Below are positions 27,621 through 33,154 of a DNA stretch of 45,653 nucleotides, one piece after another (within the stretch, counting starts at the first letter, position 1; each line of letters begins with the position of its first letter). The DNA lies in assembly GCA_017469925.1 (NCBI GenBank), contig JAFUFK010000003.1:77281-122933 (forward strand), given 5' to 3'. Under the pieces are notes generated by a model. It did no database searches. It had not been told where the DNA came from and worked only from the letters and a program-made list of their open reading frames with translations. Origin of the DNA: Bacteroidaceae bacterium. GTDB lineage: Bacteria; Bacteroidota; Bacteroidia; Bacteroidales; Bacteroidaceae. Both the position numbers and the translations under genes were made by a program.

Positions 27621-27674
27621 CGAAAATATCGCGATTTTTGCGGAATAGAATCCAAAAATATCGCGATTTTTTGG
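27621..27674. promoter_or_regulatory. Paired operator-like repeats ahead of the ATPase-WYL operon
   Basis: The sequence AAAATATCGCGATTTTT occurs twice, its ATCGCGAT palindrome starting at 27628 and 27660, 32 bases (about three helical turns) apart. The second copy runs into the -33 element of the promoter, a typical place for repressor binding. The binding protein is unknown; the WYL protein of the operon is a candidate. Confidence 0.7.
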
Positions 27675-27701
27675 GATTATATGCATAATTCTCTAACTTT
27701 G
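27670..27701 (+). promoter_or_regulatory. Promoter of the ATPase-WYL operon
   Basis: TTTG (27670-27673), 20 bases, TAACTTTG (27694-27701): a full Bacteroidetes match, 26 bases before the ATG at 27728. Confidence 0.85.
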
Positions 27702-27727: not shown

Positions 27728-28882
27728 ATGATACGCCGTAGCATAGAGAAAAGCATCCGACAGCGGATGTTCGATGGAAAAGCCATCGTCATCATGGGAG
27801 CCCGACAAGTGGGTAAGACAACACTCATCAAGCAAATCCTTGATGGCACAGAGGAAAAGATTTTCTGGCTCAACGGTGACGAGATAGACACTCGCAACCT
27901 TTTTGAAAACATATCAGCCACCCGATTGAGCAGCATCGTCGGGAACCATCGCATCGTGGTCATCGACGAAGCACAGCGCATCAGTGACATTGGTCTCAAA
28001 CTGAAACTGATAACAGACCAGATGCCCAATGTGCAACTCATTGCTACGGGCAGTTCGTCGTTCGAACTGGCTAACAAAATCAACGAGCCACTCACGGGGC
28101 GGAAATGGGAATACAGGCTATTCCCGCTCTCTTTTGCCGAACTTGTGGAGGAAACAAACCTAATGGAAGAAAAACGGATGCTCCCTCATCGGCTCGTATA
28201 TGGTTCGTATCCCGAAATCGTGACACACCCCGGCGACGAAGAAGCCCGACTGCGCCAACTTACAGATAGTTACCTCTACAAAGACCTCCTTGAATTCGAC
28301 AAAATCCAAAAGTCCGATAAACTGATAAAACTCGTGCAAGCCCTGGCCTATCAAATTGGTTCCGAGGTGTCGTACAACGAACTGGCACAACTCTGTGGCC
28401 TCGACCCCAAGACGGTGGACAGCTACATCACCATACTGGAACAGGCATATATCGTATTCCGTCTCGGCTCTTTCAGCCGCAATCTTCGCAACGAACTGAA
28501 GAGCAGCCGCAAGATATATTTCTACGACAACGGCGTGCGCAATGCAGTTATCAGCAACTTCTCGCAGATAGAAAACCGCACCGATGCCGGGGCGCTATTC
28601 GAGAACTATGCCGTCAGCGAGTGCATGAAATACAAAGCCTATACACCGTGGTATGCCAATAGTTGGTTTTGGCGCACGACGGCCATGCAGGAGATTGACT
28701 ATATTGAAGAAAAGGACGGCCAAATCCATGCCTACGAGTTTAAGTGGAATCCATCGCGCAAAGCCACGCCTCCCCTTTCTTTCCGCAATGCTTACCCCGA
28801 TGCCCAGTTTTCGGTCATCAATCGGGATAACATCGAGGATTTATTATTGTTCAGACCATCACAAAGTACAAAATTGCCATGA
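27728..28882 (+). CDS. AAA ATPase with DUF4143 domain
   Basis: A 384-residue protein of the AAA_14/DUF4143 family. Walker A is GARQVGKT (24-31), Walker B VVIDEAQ with D80/E81, and a sensor-like ATGSSSFEL follows. The C-terminal half is DUF4143 with PD-(D/E)xK-like residues in EIDYIEEKDGQIHAYEFKW. These proteins are abundant and often multi-copy in Bacteroidetes; their function is not established, though many sit in mobile or defence regions. Its stop overlaps the start of the WYL gene (ATGA), so the two are coupled. Confidence 0.88.
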   Translation: MIRRSIEKSIRQRMFDGKAIVIMGARQVGKTTLIKQILDGTEEKIFWLNGDEIDTRNLFENISATRLSSIVGNHRIVVIDEAQRISDIGLKLKLITDQMPNVQLIATGSSSFELANKINEPLTGRKWEYRLFPLSFAELVEETNLMEEKRMLPHRLVYGSYPEIVTHPGDEEARLRQLTDSYLYKDLLEFDKIQKSDKLIKLVQALAYQIGSEVSYNELAQLCGLDPKTVDSYITILEQAYIVFRLGSFSRNLRNELKSSRKIYFYDNGVRNAVISNFSQIENRTDAGALFENYAVSECMKYKAYTPWYANSWFWRTTAMQEIDYIEEKDGQIHAYEFKWNPSRKATPPLSFRNAYPDAQFSVINRDNIEDLLLFRPSQSTKLP

Positions 28883-29826
28883 AGACATCAGCATTATTCC
28901 AAGAATACATTTGGCTCGTGAACACCATCCGGAGGGCAAGAAGAATCACCTTTGAGGAAATCAACGAGCGATGGCTGGAAACGGAAATGAGCGGAGGGGT
29001 GGAACTGGCGCGCTCCACCTTCAATCGCCACAAGGATGCCATAGAGGATATGTTTGGCATCTACATCGATTGTGACCGCCAGAACGGTTACAAGTATTTC
29101 ATCGGGAACGAAGAAGTCCTGCGCGGAAATTCTGTCCAGAACTGGATGCTGTCCTCGCTATCGGTCAACAACATCATCAGTGAAAGCCTGTCGCTGCAGA
29201 AACGTATTCTCCTGGAACCCATCCCCATGGGAAATGAATACTTAGAAAAGGTCATTGAGGCCATGAAGCGTGGTGTCCGCATACAGATTCTGTACAGGAA
29301 ATACGGCACAGAGCAGCCCAAGGAACTGAACTTTGAGCCTTATTGCCTGAAACTTTTCAAACAGCGCTGGTATGTGCTGGGGCATTTCCATCGTGAAGTA
29401 AAGGATGGGCCAGACATAGACTATTTCGGCACTTTCTCTTTCGACCGCATCCTGAGCCTGGAACTTACCACAACGAAATTTGAGATAGATCCCAATTTCG
29501 ATGCCGAAGCATATTTCAGCGAATGCTACGGAGTGATGGCAAACGACGAGACGCGGCCTGTGAAGATAGTTATCCGAGTCTTCGATTACGAAAGATACTA
29601 CCTGAAAGACTTGTCCATACACCATAGCCAACGTGAAATAGGACGGGGCGAAGACTACATCGACTTTGAATTATTTGTACGACCGACATACGACCTGGAA
29701 AAACACCTTGTCAGCCTTGGCGACCAGGTAAAAGTCCTTTCTCCACAGTGGCTTGCAGACGAAATCGCACAAATACACTACGATGCGGTGTGCCTGTATG
29801 ACCCTGAAATGGGCGAAGATGAATAA
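28879..29826 (+). CDS. WYL-domain transcriptional regulator
   Basis: A 315-residue protein with an N-terminal DNA-binding region (about 5-75, winged-helix-like: ITFEEINERWLE, LARSTFNRHKDAIEDMFG), a WYL domain (about 125-210, with KQRWYVLGHF and FSFDRI) and a C-terminal WCX-like part (RPVKIVIRVFDYERYYLKDL). WYL proteins sense ligands, often nucleic acid or cyclic nucleotide signals, and many control phage-defence operons (CapW/BrxR type). Its ATG overlaps the ATPase stop. It is the likely regulator of the next two genes, whose promoters share an inverted repeat, although direct binding is an inference. Confidence 0.88.
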   Translation: MKTSALFQEYIWLVNTIRRARRITFEEINERWLETEMSGGVELARSTFNRHKDAIEDMFGIYIDCDRQNGYKYFIGNEEVLRGNSVQNWMLSSLSVNNIISESLSLQKRILLEPIPMGNEYLEKVIEAMKRGVRIQILYRKYGTEQPKELNFEPYCLKLFKQRWYVLGHFHREVKDGPDIDYFGTFSFDRILSLELTTTKFEIDPNFDAEAYFSECYGVMANDETRPVKIVIRVFDYERYYLKDLSIHHSQREIGRGEDYIDFELFVRPTYDLEKHLVSLGDQVKVLSPQWLADEIAQIHYDAVCLYDPEMGEDE

Positions 29827-29847: not shown

Positions 29848-29884
29848 TTGTCTCACGATTTGAGACAAGTAATGCGTATATTTG
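29848..29884 (+). promoter_or_regulatory. Inverted-repeat operator and promoter of the PUA-like/HsdR_N gene
   Basis: TTGTCTCA (29848-29855), 5 bases, TGAGACAA (29861-29868), then 8 bases and TATATTTG (29877-29884), a good -7 box. No TTTG lies at the usual 19-21 bases upstream; the operator occupies that place. The same layout recurs before the gene at 31591. Confidence 0.75.
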
Positions 29885-29919
29885 CCGTGACTTTTTTATG
29901 AATTATAACTTATAATGCA

Positions 29920-31449
29920 ATGAACACAGAATTTTGGAAAATCTACAAAGAGGAATCAGAGCGAGGAAAGAGAACTATTATGCTCTTTAATCCTGAGCGT
30001 GGAGAACATTTCGACATTGCCGACGAAATATTCAAATTCCAAGAGCAAAAAGAAAGCAATTTGAATGCAGAAATTTTGTCTGCGCGTTATACATTTTTAG
30101 CTGCTAACATGGAGGTGAACAATCTATCCCTTGTTGGAGAAGACAATCGAAGCCTATATAAGCACTTCATTGATGAGTTTGAAATAAGGGATTATCGCGT
30201 AGACGAAAATGGGAAGATTGTACTGCTTGACATTATCGTTCAGAAAGATGACTACCGGGCAAAACTAGATTGGGTTGCAACTTTCTCTACTTATCTCTAC
30301 TTGGCCTATGAATTCTACAAACCAATTCTGTTCACCCACAATTTCAGTTTCATTCAACGCGCTTGCGACGTTCTGGATATAGTTCTTCCACCTATTCCAC
30401 ACACAAACGACCATCGTCAATACCTATACTATTACTTTGACCTTTGCGAGACATTCAACGCATTTCAAAAAGAAAACAATCTCACTGATGCGGAGTTCTG
30501 CGCCTGTCTCTACGACTTCTCATCTATGTATCTGGACACAAAGAAAGACGATACGGAACTTACTGCTCCGACAAACATCTGGCTAACTGGTGCAAGCAAA
30601 GCGGACATTAAGTATATTGAGGAAACTGGTATCAATGAGTCCGTATGGGCGTGCAACGAACGGACACGCAGAGGCGACATAGTGATTTTGTACGCACTCG
30701 CTCCGCATAGTTGCATACACTCGATATGGCGTGCAAACTCCGGCGGTCAGTTCAACCCGTTCGACTTCTACCATTGCCGCACGACGGTACGAGACGGCGT
30801 TATCATCCCTCCTATATCTAACAAGGAACTGAAAGTGCATCCATATTTCTCGCAATTGCCAATCGTAAGGCGCAACATGCAGGGAGTAAATGGCATCGAA
30901 CTTTCTGCACAAGACTACATTGAACTCCTGAAGATTATTGAAAGCAAAGGATTCGATACAGGCAAATTGCCACAACTATATATCCCTACTGACTACAATA
31001 CGCCAGAAGTGCACGTTGAAAAGGACGTAGAAGAAAAAATTCTTATCCCCTTACTTGAGAAATTGGGTTATACGTCCGAAGACTATACAAGACAATTGTC
31101 ACAAAAAGCAGGGCGAGGATTAAAGGCAATTCCAGACTTTGTATTCTTTCCCCACGGAGAAAAGCATTTCCATACTGCCCCGTTTGTCATTGAGGCAAAA
31201 CGCGACATGCGTTCCGCGCGAGAACTGGATGCTGCATTTGAACAAGCCCTATCATACTCGCGCATGTTGCAAAACTCTATAATGGGCATTTGCGACAAAG
31301 AACGCTTGATTTTGTATTCTGTAGAGAACGGCGTGGCGGACCGCAGTAACCCAATCTTTGAAAATCATTGGGCTGTAATTTATACAGATGTGTCCATTTT
31401 CCAAAAACTAAAGAAGTTAATAGGAAGAGATATAATCTGCAAACTCTAA
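29920..31449 (+). CDS. PUA-like/HsdR N-terminal (PD-(D/E)xK) domain protein
   Basis: A 509-residue protein. Residues 1-210 are of unknown fold. Residues about 219-340 (WLTGASKADIKYIEE, VWACNERTRRGDIVILYA, SCIHSIWRANS) look like a PUA/EVE-type module (GD followed by a beta strand, then a returning strand). Residues about 365-475 match the type I restriction HsdR N-terminal nuclease-like domain: VEEKILIPLLEKLGY, IPDFVF (D406), FVIEAKR (E425, K427). No helicase motor is present. A plausible reading is a nucleic acid reader joined to a nuclease fold, but activity is not demonstrated. The gene is visibly more AT-rich than its housekeeping neighbours, suggesting transfer. Confidence 0.75.
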   Translation: MNTEFWKIYKEESERGKRTIMLFNPERGEHFDIADEIFKFQEQKESNLNAEILSARYTFLAANMEVNNLSLVGEDNRSLYKHFIDEFEIRDYRVDENGKIVLLDIIVQKDDYRAKLDWVATFSTYLYLAYEFYKPILFTHNFSFIQRACDVLDIVLPPIPHTNDHRQYLYYYFDLCETFNAFQKENNLTDAEFCACLYDFSSMYLDTKKDDTELTAPTNIWLTGASKADIKYIEETGINESVWACNERTRRGDIVILYALAPHSCIHSIWRANSGGQFNPFDFYHCRTTVRDGVIIPPISNKELKVHPYFSQLPIVRRNMQGVNGIELSAQDYIELLKIIESKGFDTGKLPQLYIPTDYNTPEVHVEKDVEEKILIPLLEKLGYTSEDYTRQLSQKAGRGLKAIPDFVFFPHGEKHFHTAPFVIEAKRDMRSARELDAAFEQALSYSRMLQNSIMGICDKERLILYSVENGVADRSNPIFENHWAVIYTDVSIFQKLKKLIGRDIICKL

Positions 31450-31511
31450 AGCCGTCAATCCACTTTCTTACGATCTAAAACCATTCAAAAAACAACAATT
31501 TACAAAAAGTT

Positions 31512-31553
31512 GGAGGTTGTCCCATGATTTGAGACAACCTCCTTTTAACTTTG
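31512..31553 (+). promoter_or_regulatory. Inverted-repeat operator and promoter of the PUA-like/HD gene
   Basis: TTGTCCCA (31517-31524), 5 bases, TGAGACAA (31530-31537), 8 bases, TAACTTTG (31546-31553). The outer bases extend the stem (GGAGG/CCTCC at 31512-31516 and 31538-31542) and TTTT follows, so it could also act as a terminator for the preceding gene. Confidence 0.75.
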
Positions 31554-31590
31554 TGGCAGAATTACACGTTTAACCATTAAAAGGAGAACT

Positions 31591-32709
31591 ATGAAGACAT
31601 TTATTCTTTTCTGGAATCCGACCATTTCGGATTGGAAACTGGACGACTGCCAAGAGTGTATTGAGAACGAAATCCTCTATGACTTCAATTGGGCGGTTTG
31701 GGAGCACAAAGAAGCACACAAGGGCGACCGCTTTTTCATGGTAAGATGCGGAGACGGCCATACAGGCATCTGCATGAGCGGCCATTTCAGGTCGGAGCCA
31801 TATATCGGGGACGACTGGTCAGGAAAAGGGCGCGAAGTCCATTATTGTTTTTTAGATGTGGAAGTATATATACACCCTGAATTATGCCCCATCCTTCCGA
31901 CTGCGACCTTGCAAGAGGAGATTCCTGGATTTGACTGGACGGGTGGTCATTCCGGACGTGTGCTTGATGCGGAATCAGCCGATAAACTTGAAAGACTCTG
32001 GAGCGCATTTTTGGAGCAGCATGACGGCATGTTCCATAAGTATGCTTATAAGCAAACAGAGTATGACGAGGACGATGATTATGATGATGACGATGACGAG
32101 CGGGAATTTTGGGTCGACGTAAAAGATACTGGTGAGATTGTCATTGAAGATGATTTCGAGTACGAAATAGAAGTAAGAGGCTGGACACTTGACGAGACTA
32201 AAGAAAAACTTTACAATGTCCTCTCTGCACTTGGGGCAGACGTGTCAAATGTACATTTAAGATACTCGGATGTCATGCAAAAAATGGAGCCTTTGTATGA
32301 AAAAGCACTATCCATAGCCTCCAGCAAACACCATGGCCAGATGGACAAAGGAGGGCAACCGTATCTCGGGCACTTAGTCAGAGTTTCAAATGCTTGCACC
32401 TCAGATAAGGCAAAGATTGTAGCCCTGCTTCACGATTCCATCGAAGACACGGATGTAACTCCAGAATATCTGAGGACTGAAGGCTTTCCCGAAGACGTTG
32501 TCAAGAGCATTCTGGCTGTTACAAGGAAAACCGATGAAGAGTATGAAGATTTCATGCAGCGTGTTGCCAAAAACCGCTTAGGGCGAGAAGTAAAGATTAG
32601 AGATTTAGAAGATAACATGGACGTTCGCCGCTTAGAAGAATTGACAGACAGCAACATAGAACGTCTGAAAAAGTATTTTAAGGCATGGAGATACCTGAAA
32701 GGTAAATAA
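31591..32709 (+). CDS. PUA/EVE-like domain fused to a MESH1-type HD hydrolase
   Basis: A 372-residue two-domain protein. Residues 1-145 (FILFWNPTISDWKL, WEHKEAHKGDRFFMVRCG, HTGICMSGHFRSEPY, DWSGKGREV, WTGGHSGRVL) resemble the PUA/EVE-like N-terminal module found on some restriction endonucleases, which can recognise modified bases. An acidic linker follows (about 157-170). Residues about 230-365 match the RelA/SpoT/MESH1 HD hydrolase: HHGQMDKGGQPYLGHL, ALLHDSIEDTD (H281, D282, E285, D286) and IRDLEDNMD. The expected substrate type would be a pyrophosphorylated or other nucleotide. I know of no characterised protein with this combination. AT-rich, with the same operator as the preceding gene. 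Confidence 0.78.
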   Translation: MKTFILFWNPTISDWKLDDCQECIENEILYDFNWAVWEHKEAHKGDRFFMVRCGDGHTGICMSGHFRSEPYIGDDWSGKGREVHYCFLDVEVYIHPELCPILPTATLQEEIPGFDWTGGHSGRVLDAESADKLERLWSAFLEQHDGMFHKYAYKQTEYDEDDDYDDDDDEREFWVDVKDTGEIVIEDDFEYEIEVRGWTLDETKEKLYNVLSALGADVSNVHLRYSDVMQKMEPLYEKALSIASSKHHGQMDKGGQPYLGHLVRVSNACTSDKAKIVALLHDSIEDTDVTPEYLRTEGFPEDVVKSILAVTRKTDEEYEDFMQRVAKNRLGREVKIRDLEDNMDVRRLEELTDSNIERLKKYFKAWRYLKGK

Positions 32710-33018: not shown

Positions 33019-33066
33019 AAACGGATTTCCTAAAATATAAACAGTTTGCCCTATAAGTCCCCGTTT

Positions 33067-33154
33067 GTGCCATAGGTGGCACAAATGTGTGCCGTCAGTG
33101 GCACGAACCTGTGCCATCGGTGACACGAACGTGTGCCACCAATGGCACAAAACG
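33067..33154. repeat. 22-base tandem repeat array, 4 units
   Basis: Units start with GTGCC at 33067, 33089, 33111 and 33133. Each has the form GTGCC-N5-TGGCAC (one TGACAC) plus a 6-base tail, so each is a small hairpin. Located in the convergent gap between the small RNA and the sialate O-acetylesterase gene. Confidence 0.93.

Follow-up and report, generated by a model that had tools for sequence, protein, structure and literature searches.

A candidate WYL-controlled regulon with a fixed operator-promoter spacing in Bacteroidaceae genomes

Introduction

A 45,653-nt stretch of DNA from a Bacteroidaceae bacterium (GenBank assembly GCA_017469925.1, contig JAFUFK010000003.1, positions 77,281 to 122,933; hereafter the window) carries two genes, P0003 and P0004, directly downstream of P0002, which encodes a WYL-WCX transcription factor. 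The promoters of both genes contain the same inverted repeat at exactly the same distance from the -7 box. The repeat (hereafter the operator) recurs in related genomes with the same 8-nt spacing, beside homologs of the WYL gene and before genes that are not homologous to one another. These sequence comparisons support the claim of an earlier note made from the letters of the window alone (the original prediction) that the genes form one regulon under the WYL regulator. It is rather probable, in our judgement, that the WYL protein works as a DriD-type homodimeric activator, which would switch on both genes via an operator that replaces the -33 element. The features computed here are the operator, its spacing and rarity, the absence of the -33 element, the linkage to WYL, the recurrence of the block, the diversity of the cargo, and the folds of P0004.

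Results

Two operators stand in the -33 position

The two operators in the window are 21-bp near-palindromes of the form TTGTCYCA-N5-TGRGACAA, and the boxes were read against the -7/-33 promoter consensus with the box TAnnTTTG, as given in the available part of PMC7366714. The features are as follows.

29848-29868, plus strand: operator 1, TTGTCTCACGATTTGAGACAA, in the -33 position before P0003
29877-29884, plus strand: -7 box TATATTTG, 8 nt after operator 1, with the TAnnTTTG consensus
31517-31537, plus strand: operator 2, TTGTCCCATGATTTGAGACAA, before P0004; the palindrome extends to 31512-31542
31546-31553, plus strand: -7 box TAACTTTG, 8 nt after operator 2

By direct reading, neither box has a TTTG 19-21 nt before it. 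Both inverted repeats, their exact 8-nt spacing, and the missing -33 element are thus as the original prediction described them. With up to three mismatches, the operator pattern gave four matches, which are the two sites read on both strands, against 0.57 expected; this number was reached in 2 of 100 shuffles. In the whole 2.87-Mb genome (28 contigs, 86% complete), only these two places matched with up to two mismatches, and the reversed-pattern control gave none. The repeat is not a common one in the genome, the opposite of what the original prediction had named as its refutation.

Operator and box keep one spacing beside WYL genes

The spacing was determined in 80 WYL loci, the best 80 of 276, drawn from another collection by the WYL protein profile alone because selection on the operator was to be avoided. 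The loci come chiefly from rumen and gut metagenome-assembled genomes labelled Prevotellaceae, Bacteroidaceae, or Bacteroidales; the isolates among them are P. ruminicola KHT3, Segatella baroniae B14, Bacteroidales bacterium KHT7, and two S. copri. Sites were scored without the box, by an operator matrix built from 16 training sites. Of 81 distinct sites, 61 had an exact TAnnTTTG at spacing 8, and an exact box was absent at all other spacings between 0 and 40 on the same strand; four boxes were found on the opposite side. When the 80 loci were shuffled once, no site remained. An untrained symmetric core recovered 76 sites, with 58 boxes at spacing 8 and four at other spacings, and the reversed core recovered no site.

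Thirteen of the 80 loci share DNA with loci fetched earlier, and the test was rerun on the other 67. In these non-overlapping loci, 55 of 68 sites had the box at spacing 8 and none elsewhere; the corresponding counts for the untrained core were 53 of 65 and two. Among 136 distinct 37-mers (selected by at least 5/6 box letters at spacing 8), the spacer is fixed in length and its letters carry little information. The spacing data thus describe a pseudo-palindrome of about 20 bp over the -35/-33 region at a constant distance from the -10/-7 element. TTTG at a gap of 19-20 was found at none of the 61 operator promoters, compared with 39 occurrences at 250 other boxes before open reading frames (ORFs); because the operator fills that stretch, the missing -33 element describes the architecture and does not count as an independent test. 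The operator promoter was aimed at the WYL gene itself in 2 of 81 cases, the window's not among them, and some site lay within 400 bp upstream of the WYL gene in 4 of 80 loci.

More diverged WYL loci (L190, L191, L192, L189, and L078) contain variant operators, including TGTACC...GGTACA and TGTTTC...GAAACA, still with the 8-nt spacing. Such sequence variants suggest related regulons with altered specificity. An early spacing count that included the variant loci is not independent, because the loci were partly picked by operator pattern. Operator and WYL sequences were also compared for covariation in 84 loci, 46 of which had an operator. By counts read by eye, Ser occurred at WYL residue 44 in 7 of 17 loci lacking C at operator position 5 and in 0 of 29 with C there; close relatives break the pattern.

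The operator recurs with WYL homologs in the family

In the family survey, 251 genomes were searched with the operator, 8-nt spacer, and box as the query (up to three mismatches), and the reversed pattern was used as the control. The query gave 61 sites in 28 genomes and the control gave 0. The same query in 295 genomes at the order level gave three sites in two genomes besides the window's own, against four control matches; to the extent that this pattern can detect it, the signal is therefore limited to the family. No exact match to the strict operator-promoter pattern was found in viral contigs.

WYL homologs at E <= 1e-20 were present in 129 of the 251 genomes. In 34 of them the identity was at least 50% (a close WYL; counted by hand from the homolog list, with the line set after the list was seen). 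Sites were found in 18 of these 34 genomes versus 10 of the 217 others (Fisher p 1e-11). Viewed from the WYL side, 57 of the 80 WYL loci hold a recognised site, and in 40 a site lies within 400 bp of the WYL gene; a genome has seven sites at most by the strict pattern. Of all gene families, only WYL occurs in the majority of the 80 loci (73 by clustering); HIRAN is next (11/80). In the isolate S. baroniae B14, which has the WYL gene, an operator precedes an EVE-domain gene.

Two genomes hold 6-7 operator-promoter sites each, several of them away from any WYL gene. One of the two, G137 (L158-L163), has its own WYL gene. The other, G066 (L178, L179, and L231-L233), is an 84% complete assembly with no WYL hit.

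A conserved element with variable cargo

Locus L241 repeats the whole block: a WYL gene (80% identical), an operator, a P0003 homolog (77%), a second operator, and a P0004 homolog with 67% and 66% identity in its two domains. Among the 80 WYL loci, a P0003 relative was found in 8, the P0004 EVE domain in 11, and its HD domain in 7. The ATPase gene upstream of P0002 (P0001), which the original prediction had counted as part of the unit, was rejected as a partner, as a relative (24% identical) was found in only one of the 80 loci. From this distribution, the conserved element consists of the WYL gene and the operator; the cargo is exchangeable and also found elsewhere, and the ATPase is incidental.

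The cargo was collected from 154 sites with at least 5/6 box matches, which represent 138 distinct contexts. In 113 of these an ORF of 55 aa or more followed, and 25 had no gene under this rule; some of the 113 ORFs are surely spurious, and family scans used single cluster representatives. Loci L129-L157, short copies of regions most of which were later fetched larger, were omitted from one locus scan, and a further scan was restricted to loci with an entry in a place map. Among the 113 operator genes, 12 have an EVE domain, six are P0003-like, and five have a P0004-type HD domain. The member tested had a HIRAN domain in a cluster of 15, PDDEXK_1 in a cluster of 10 (mostly ~920 aa), and an ASCH-like match just under the cut-off in a cluster of six. 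Single representatives matched ADP-ribosylglycohydrolase, UvrD-PDDEXK, T5orf172, and HNH. An SNF2 helicase had DrmD as its best PADLOC model, and an ORF6N protein just below the cut-off had the PADLOC candidate PDC-M59A. Further matches were to the N-terminus of HsdM (a 191-aa ORF, 237 nt after the box), to the N-terminus of GmrSD (in S. copri cargo), and, sub-threshold in one representative, to UDG. Judged by these family matches, the operator cargo is variable and often restriction- or DNA-processing-like, and several of the representatives scanned are defence-like.

In one locus (L103, 103-3657), a UvrD-PDDEXK helicase-nuclease ends in an EVE domain of the P0004 type. In three loci (L092, 7258-7536; L123, 6428-6703; L167, 1637-1912), a protein of 92-93 aa that includes a hydrophobic stretch lies directly under an operator, in two of them near a WYL gene. 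The L123 protein, the one scanned, had no Pfam match. These small proteins are possible membrane effectors.

Genes and neighbouring features of the block

The genes of the block and the promoter of its first operon are as follows.

27670-27701, plus strand: promoter of the ATPase-WYL operon, TTTG-N20-TAACTTTG, canonical-looking and with a -33 element
27728-28882, plus strand: P0001, AAA_14/DUF4143 ATPase, in an operon with the WYL gene and judged to be outside the conserved unit
28879-29826, plus strand: P0002, WYL-WCX transcription factor of 315 aa (Pfam WYL 3e-11, WCX 4e-8)
29920-31449, plus strand: P0003, 509 aa, with a C-terminal PD-(D/E)XK/HSDR_N-like nuclease part and the remainder of undefined fold
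31591-32709, plus strand: P0004, 372 aa, with an EVE/YTH-fold domain (~aa 1-145) and a (p)ppApp-hydrolase-like HD domain (aa 231-371)

The reading frames of P0001 and P0002 overlap by 4 nt, and the GC content of P0003 and P0004 (41-45%, against 53-61% in the flanks) bears out their reported AT-richness. The N-terminal part of P0002 is conserved among homologs and had no Pfam helix-turn-helix match; P0002 is the proposed reader of the operator. A single-sequence search of the PDB gave nothing useful for P0002 (none at E <= 0.01) or P0003. A profile of P0002 homologs reached DriD chains (E 1e-4 to 3e-4, with the C-terminal part alone aligned), PafBC (0.003), and CapW (0.49). The structures 8TP8, 7U02, and 9CU3 are presumably DriD structures. 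Four others (7TZV, 9PFQ, 9PFV, and 9PGA) are named as such in the available text of a preprint (PMC12340889).

The original prediction assigned an HsdR_N nuclease fold to P0003. The C-terminal part does resemble HSDR_N, under the Pfam cut-off, and the candidate PD-(D/E)XK residues E371, D406, E425, K427, and Q442 (an E...PD...(E)xK...Q motif assigned by eye) are invariant in 10 aligned sequences. A PUA/EVE-like part had been claimed for each gene. In P0004, the N-terminal domain does have the EVE/YTH fold and is a putative modified-base reader. In P0003, such a part is unsupported, as comparison with the P0004 EVE domain by hhalign, whole and in pieces, detected nothing (probability <1%). The structure model of P0003 (mean predicted local distance difference test score, pLDDT, of 42) was too poor for a fold search, and no relatives of P0003 were found in viral contigs. 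The MESH1-type hydrolase claimed for P0004 was recovered as a small-alarmone-hydrolase HD domain, alignable over its length.

Three further features flank these genes. Two exact copies of AAATATCGCGATTTTT (27624-27639 and 27656-27671, 32 nt apart) lie at the -33 position of the ATPase-WYL promoter. The repeat has a palindromic core, ATCGCGAT, and does not occur elsewhere in the genome with up to one mismatch; the pair is possibly a separate operator governing WYL supply. A tRNA-like sequence lies directly after P0004 (32722-32816), with the T-arm AGGTTCGAATCCTACC, an outer stem of ~14 pairs, and a fold z-score of -2.8. ARAGORN and Rfam gave no call for this element, which is single-copy in the genome and may be a tRNA remnant or an integration scar. 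At 33066-33151, between P0004 and the next minus-strand gene, four copies of the 20-nt repeat TGTGCCATAGGTGGCACAAA are arranged with a 22-nt period, each roughly palindromic.

Discussion

The sequence layout looks more like an on-switch than like the off-switches of related defence regulators. In the mechanism that we propose, the WYL domain of a homodimer would bind a signal, which is probably single-stranded DNA (ssDNA) or some other nucleic acid produced by phage attack or DNA damage. The signal-bound dimer would then occupy the 21-bp near-palindrome, which covers the -33 region and ends 8 nt before the -7 box, at promoters that have no usable -33 element. There it would keep RNA polymerase at the promoter, and the gene would be switched on. 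The targets in the window would be the PD-(D/E)XK nuclease-like P0003 and P0004, in which a reader of modified bases with an EVE fold would be joined to a (p)ppApp hydrolase; the targets in relatives would be a changing set that includes restriction-like, nuclease, helicase, and HIRAN/EVE/ASCH genes. The products of this cargo may protect the cell against phage. A DriD-like activator is favoured over a CapW/BrxR-type repressor because the operator replaces the -33 element at a fixed phase, because DriD and PafBC score ahead of CapW in the WYL profile search, because the spacing is exact before unrelated genes, and because the operator promoter seldom points at the WYL gene.

A wider proposal is offered more tentatively, as we hold it somewhat less probable than its opposite. 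Prevotella-like Bacteroidota may possess an inducible, SOS-like immunity, in which a DriD-type activator would sense debris of nucleic acids and, through a promoter element standing in for -33, turn on dispersed and exchangeable defence genes; an EVE-(p)ppApp-hydrolase fusion, as a new type of effector, would be among them. Any gene that gained the 37-bp operator-promoter cassette would then join the regulon. If true, the activator mechanism of WYL proteins such as DriD and PafBC would extend to a major phylum of the gut and rumen, and WYL control would reach many restriction-like genes instead of one system. The 37-bp signature would find uncharacterised defence genes in Prevotella-like genomes without the help of homology, and how Bacteroidota turn on their defences would become testable, for example in S. 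baroniae B14.

Several observations weigh against a WYL-activated regulon. Twenty-three of the 80 WYL loci have no recognised site, and the strict pattern found no site in 16 of the 34 genomes with a close WYL. Conversely, 10 of the 28 site-bearing genomes lack a close WYL; four of the 10 have no WYL hit, two have partial matches of 51-59% identity, and three are at least 97% complete. When the operator alone was searched with up to one mismatch, 46 of the 251 genomes matched compared with 28 for the reversed control; this search is noisy, and the box is therefore needed for specificity. P0003 relatives were found without WYL or the operator core in the fetched stretch of five family genomes (L106-L110), so that the co-occurrence proposed as a check in the original prediction stands for the eight WYL loci and fails for these five. 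A full-length P0004 homolog in L094 likewise lacks both in the fetched stretch, and a P0004-like gene in L091 has a 43% identical WYL and no operator core. Some cargo is not defence-like: a serpin (two genomes) and, judged by eye, lipoprotein-like proteins and small hydrophobic ones. The most informative WYL columns in the covariation lie outside the N-terminal DNA-binding part. The profile matches of WYL to DriD and PafBC are weak, and a repressor could also occupy the -33 position.

That last point leads to the CapW/BrxR-type repressor, the analogy drawn in the original prediction. In this explanation, which we consider unlikely but the strongest of those weighed against activation, the WYL protein on the operator would block RNA polymerase and come off once a ligand arises from phage infection, derepressing both genes. 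CBASS and BREX are indeed repressed by their WYL regulators (PMC9122588, PMC9122601, as far as the available parts go), and these too are dimers on imperfect palindromes in defence-gene promoters. For BrxR, too, the bound inverted repeat has a 5-bp spacer (PMC9122601), and the operator of the window covers a promoter region. However, the operators of these repressors overlap or follow the -10 element and also act on their own genes. In the portions of the two sources available, the CapW sites overlap -10 (PMC9122588) and the BrxR site lies past it, between the predicted -10 and brxR (PMC9122601), whereas the site here ends 8 nt before the -7 box. The promoter of the ATPase-WYL operon has a -33 element of its own, and the operator faces a WYL gene in only 2 of 81 cases, though 4 of 80 loci have an upstream site within 400 bp. 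A repressed promoter would be expected to retain its -33 element, yet none of the 61 has TTTG at the expected gap. Repression does not need an exact spacing before unrelated genes, and CapW was last among the WYL structures listed. With the site replacing -33 at a fixed spacing and rarely facing WYL, the analogy is unsupported for the mechanism, and the repressor stays as the main rival.

The fixed distance to the -7 box would also be expected from a sigma factor, and the operator could be read by some other factor, such as a regulator encoded elsewhere or an alternative sigma factor that keeps a fixed -33/-7 spacing, WYL being only a frequent neighbour. The 10 site-bearing genomes without a close WYL speak for this explanation, which we nevertheless hold improbable. 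Seven of these 10 assemblies are less than 90% complete, and sites are strongly enriched in WYL-bearing genomes. Half of the WYL loci have a site within 400 bp though a genome holds at most seven, and no non-WYL gene family occurs in more than 11 of the 80 loci. Moreover, the near-palindrome suits a dimer, and the box is an ordinary TAnnTTTG. A further alternative, in which the operators would be terminators or copies of a dispersed repeat, is very improbable. The stem of site 2 has 13 pairs, and on the minus strand this site reads as a terminator-like hairpin, but terminator-like hits are at the shuffled level (3 versus a mean of 2.8), site 1 has no T run, and the sequence after the sites is not generally T-rich. 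This reading was rejected on these hairpin counts, on the two copies in the genome, and on the tie of the sites to the box at one spacing and in one orientation.

Among known systems, the (p)ppApp hydrolase of Bacteroides caccae (7smg) is matched over its whole domain by aa 231-371 of P0004 (57-59% identity); P0004 differs in its additional N-terminal EVE/YTH-fold domain. This EVE fold is shared with EVE-linked defence proteins such as the EVE-HNH protein VcaM4I and the products of YafY(WYL)-EVE operons. WYL-type (YafY) factors next to EVE genes have already been recorded in an earlier census (section 8 of PMC7641849), and WYL-EVE adjacency by itself is thus not new. The partners given there are EhpR/SRPBCC, and the available text of that section describes no operator. 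In the same available text, the words alarmone, SpoT, and Prevotella are absent, and HIRAN occurs only within an author's name. Among the titles and abstract beginnings listed by literature searches, and in the passages available from that census, no description appeared of a WYL regulon in Bacteroidota, of the fixed operator geometry, or of an EVE-(p)ppApp-hydrolase fusion, the fusion not having been searched by name.

The PafBC motif stands 8 nt before the -10 element. The position of the window operator fits a WYL site that replaces the -35 contact of sigma domain 4. According to the available parts of PMC11804915 and PMC10693628, PafBC and SiwR act from a site near -26, between -35 and -10, and in PafBC the WYL protein is inserted between sigma domain 4 and the DNA. 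PafBC is a heterodimer in which only the DNA-binding domain of PafB touches the promoter (PMC12340889, in the text available). The near-palindrome here differs in suggesting a homodimer, and the single WYL gene in the unit and the single WYL match at E <= 1e-20 in the genome weigh against a PafBC-like heterodimer.

The closest comparison is with DriD of Caulobacter crescentus, as described in the available text of PMC12340889. DriD is activated by ssDNA and binds a 21-bp (7-7-7) pseudo-palindrome, ATACGAC-N7-GTCGTAT, over the -35 region at a constant distance from -10 in poor promoters. The WYL protein of the window differs from it in the consensus that would be read, in a sequence similarity detected by profile alone, in a phylum and primary sigma factor that are not those of DriD, and in having several restriction-like targets, often beside the regulator. 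The two are alike in the order of an N-terminal part, WYL, and WCX (327 aa in DriD and 315 aa here), in a site that overlaps the -35/-33 region at a fixed distance from the -10/-7 element of promoters with a poor -35, in dispersed targets, and, as far as that text goes, in not controlling their own gene.

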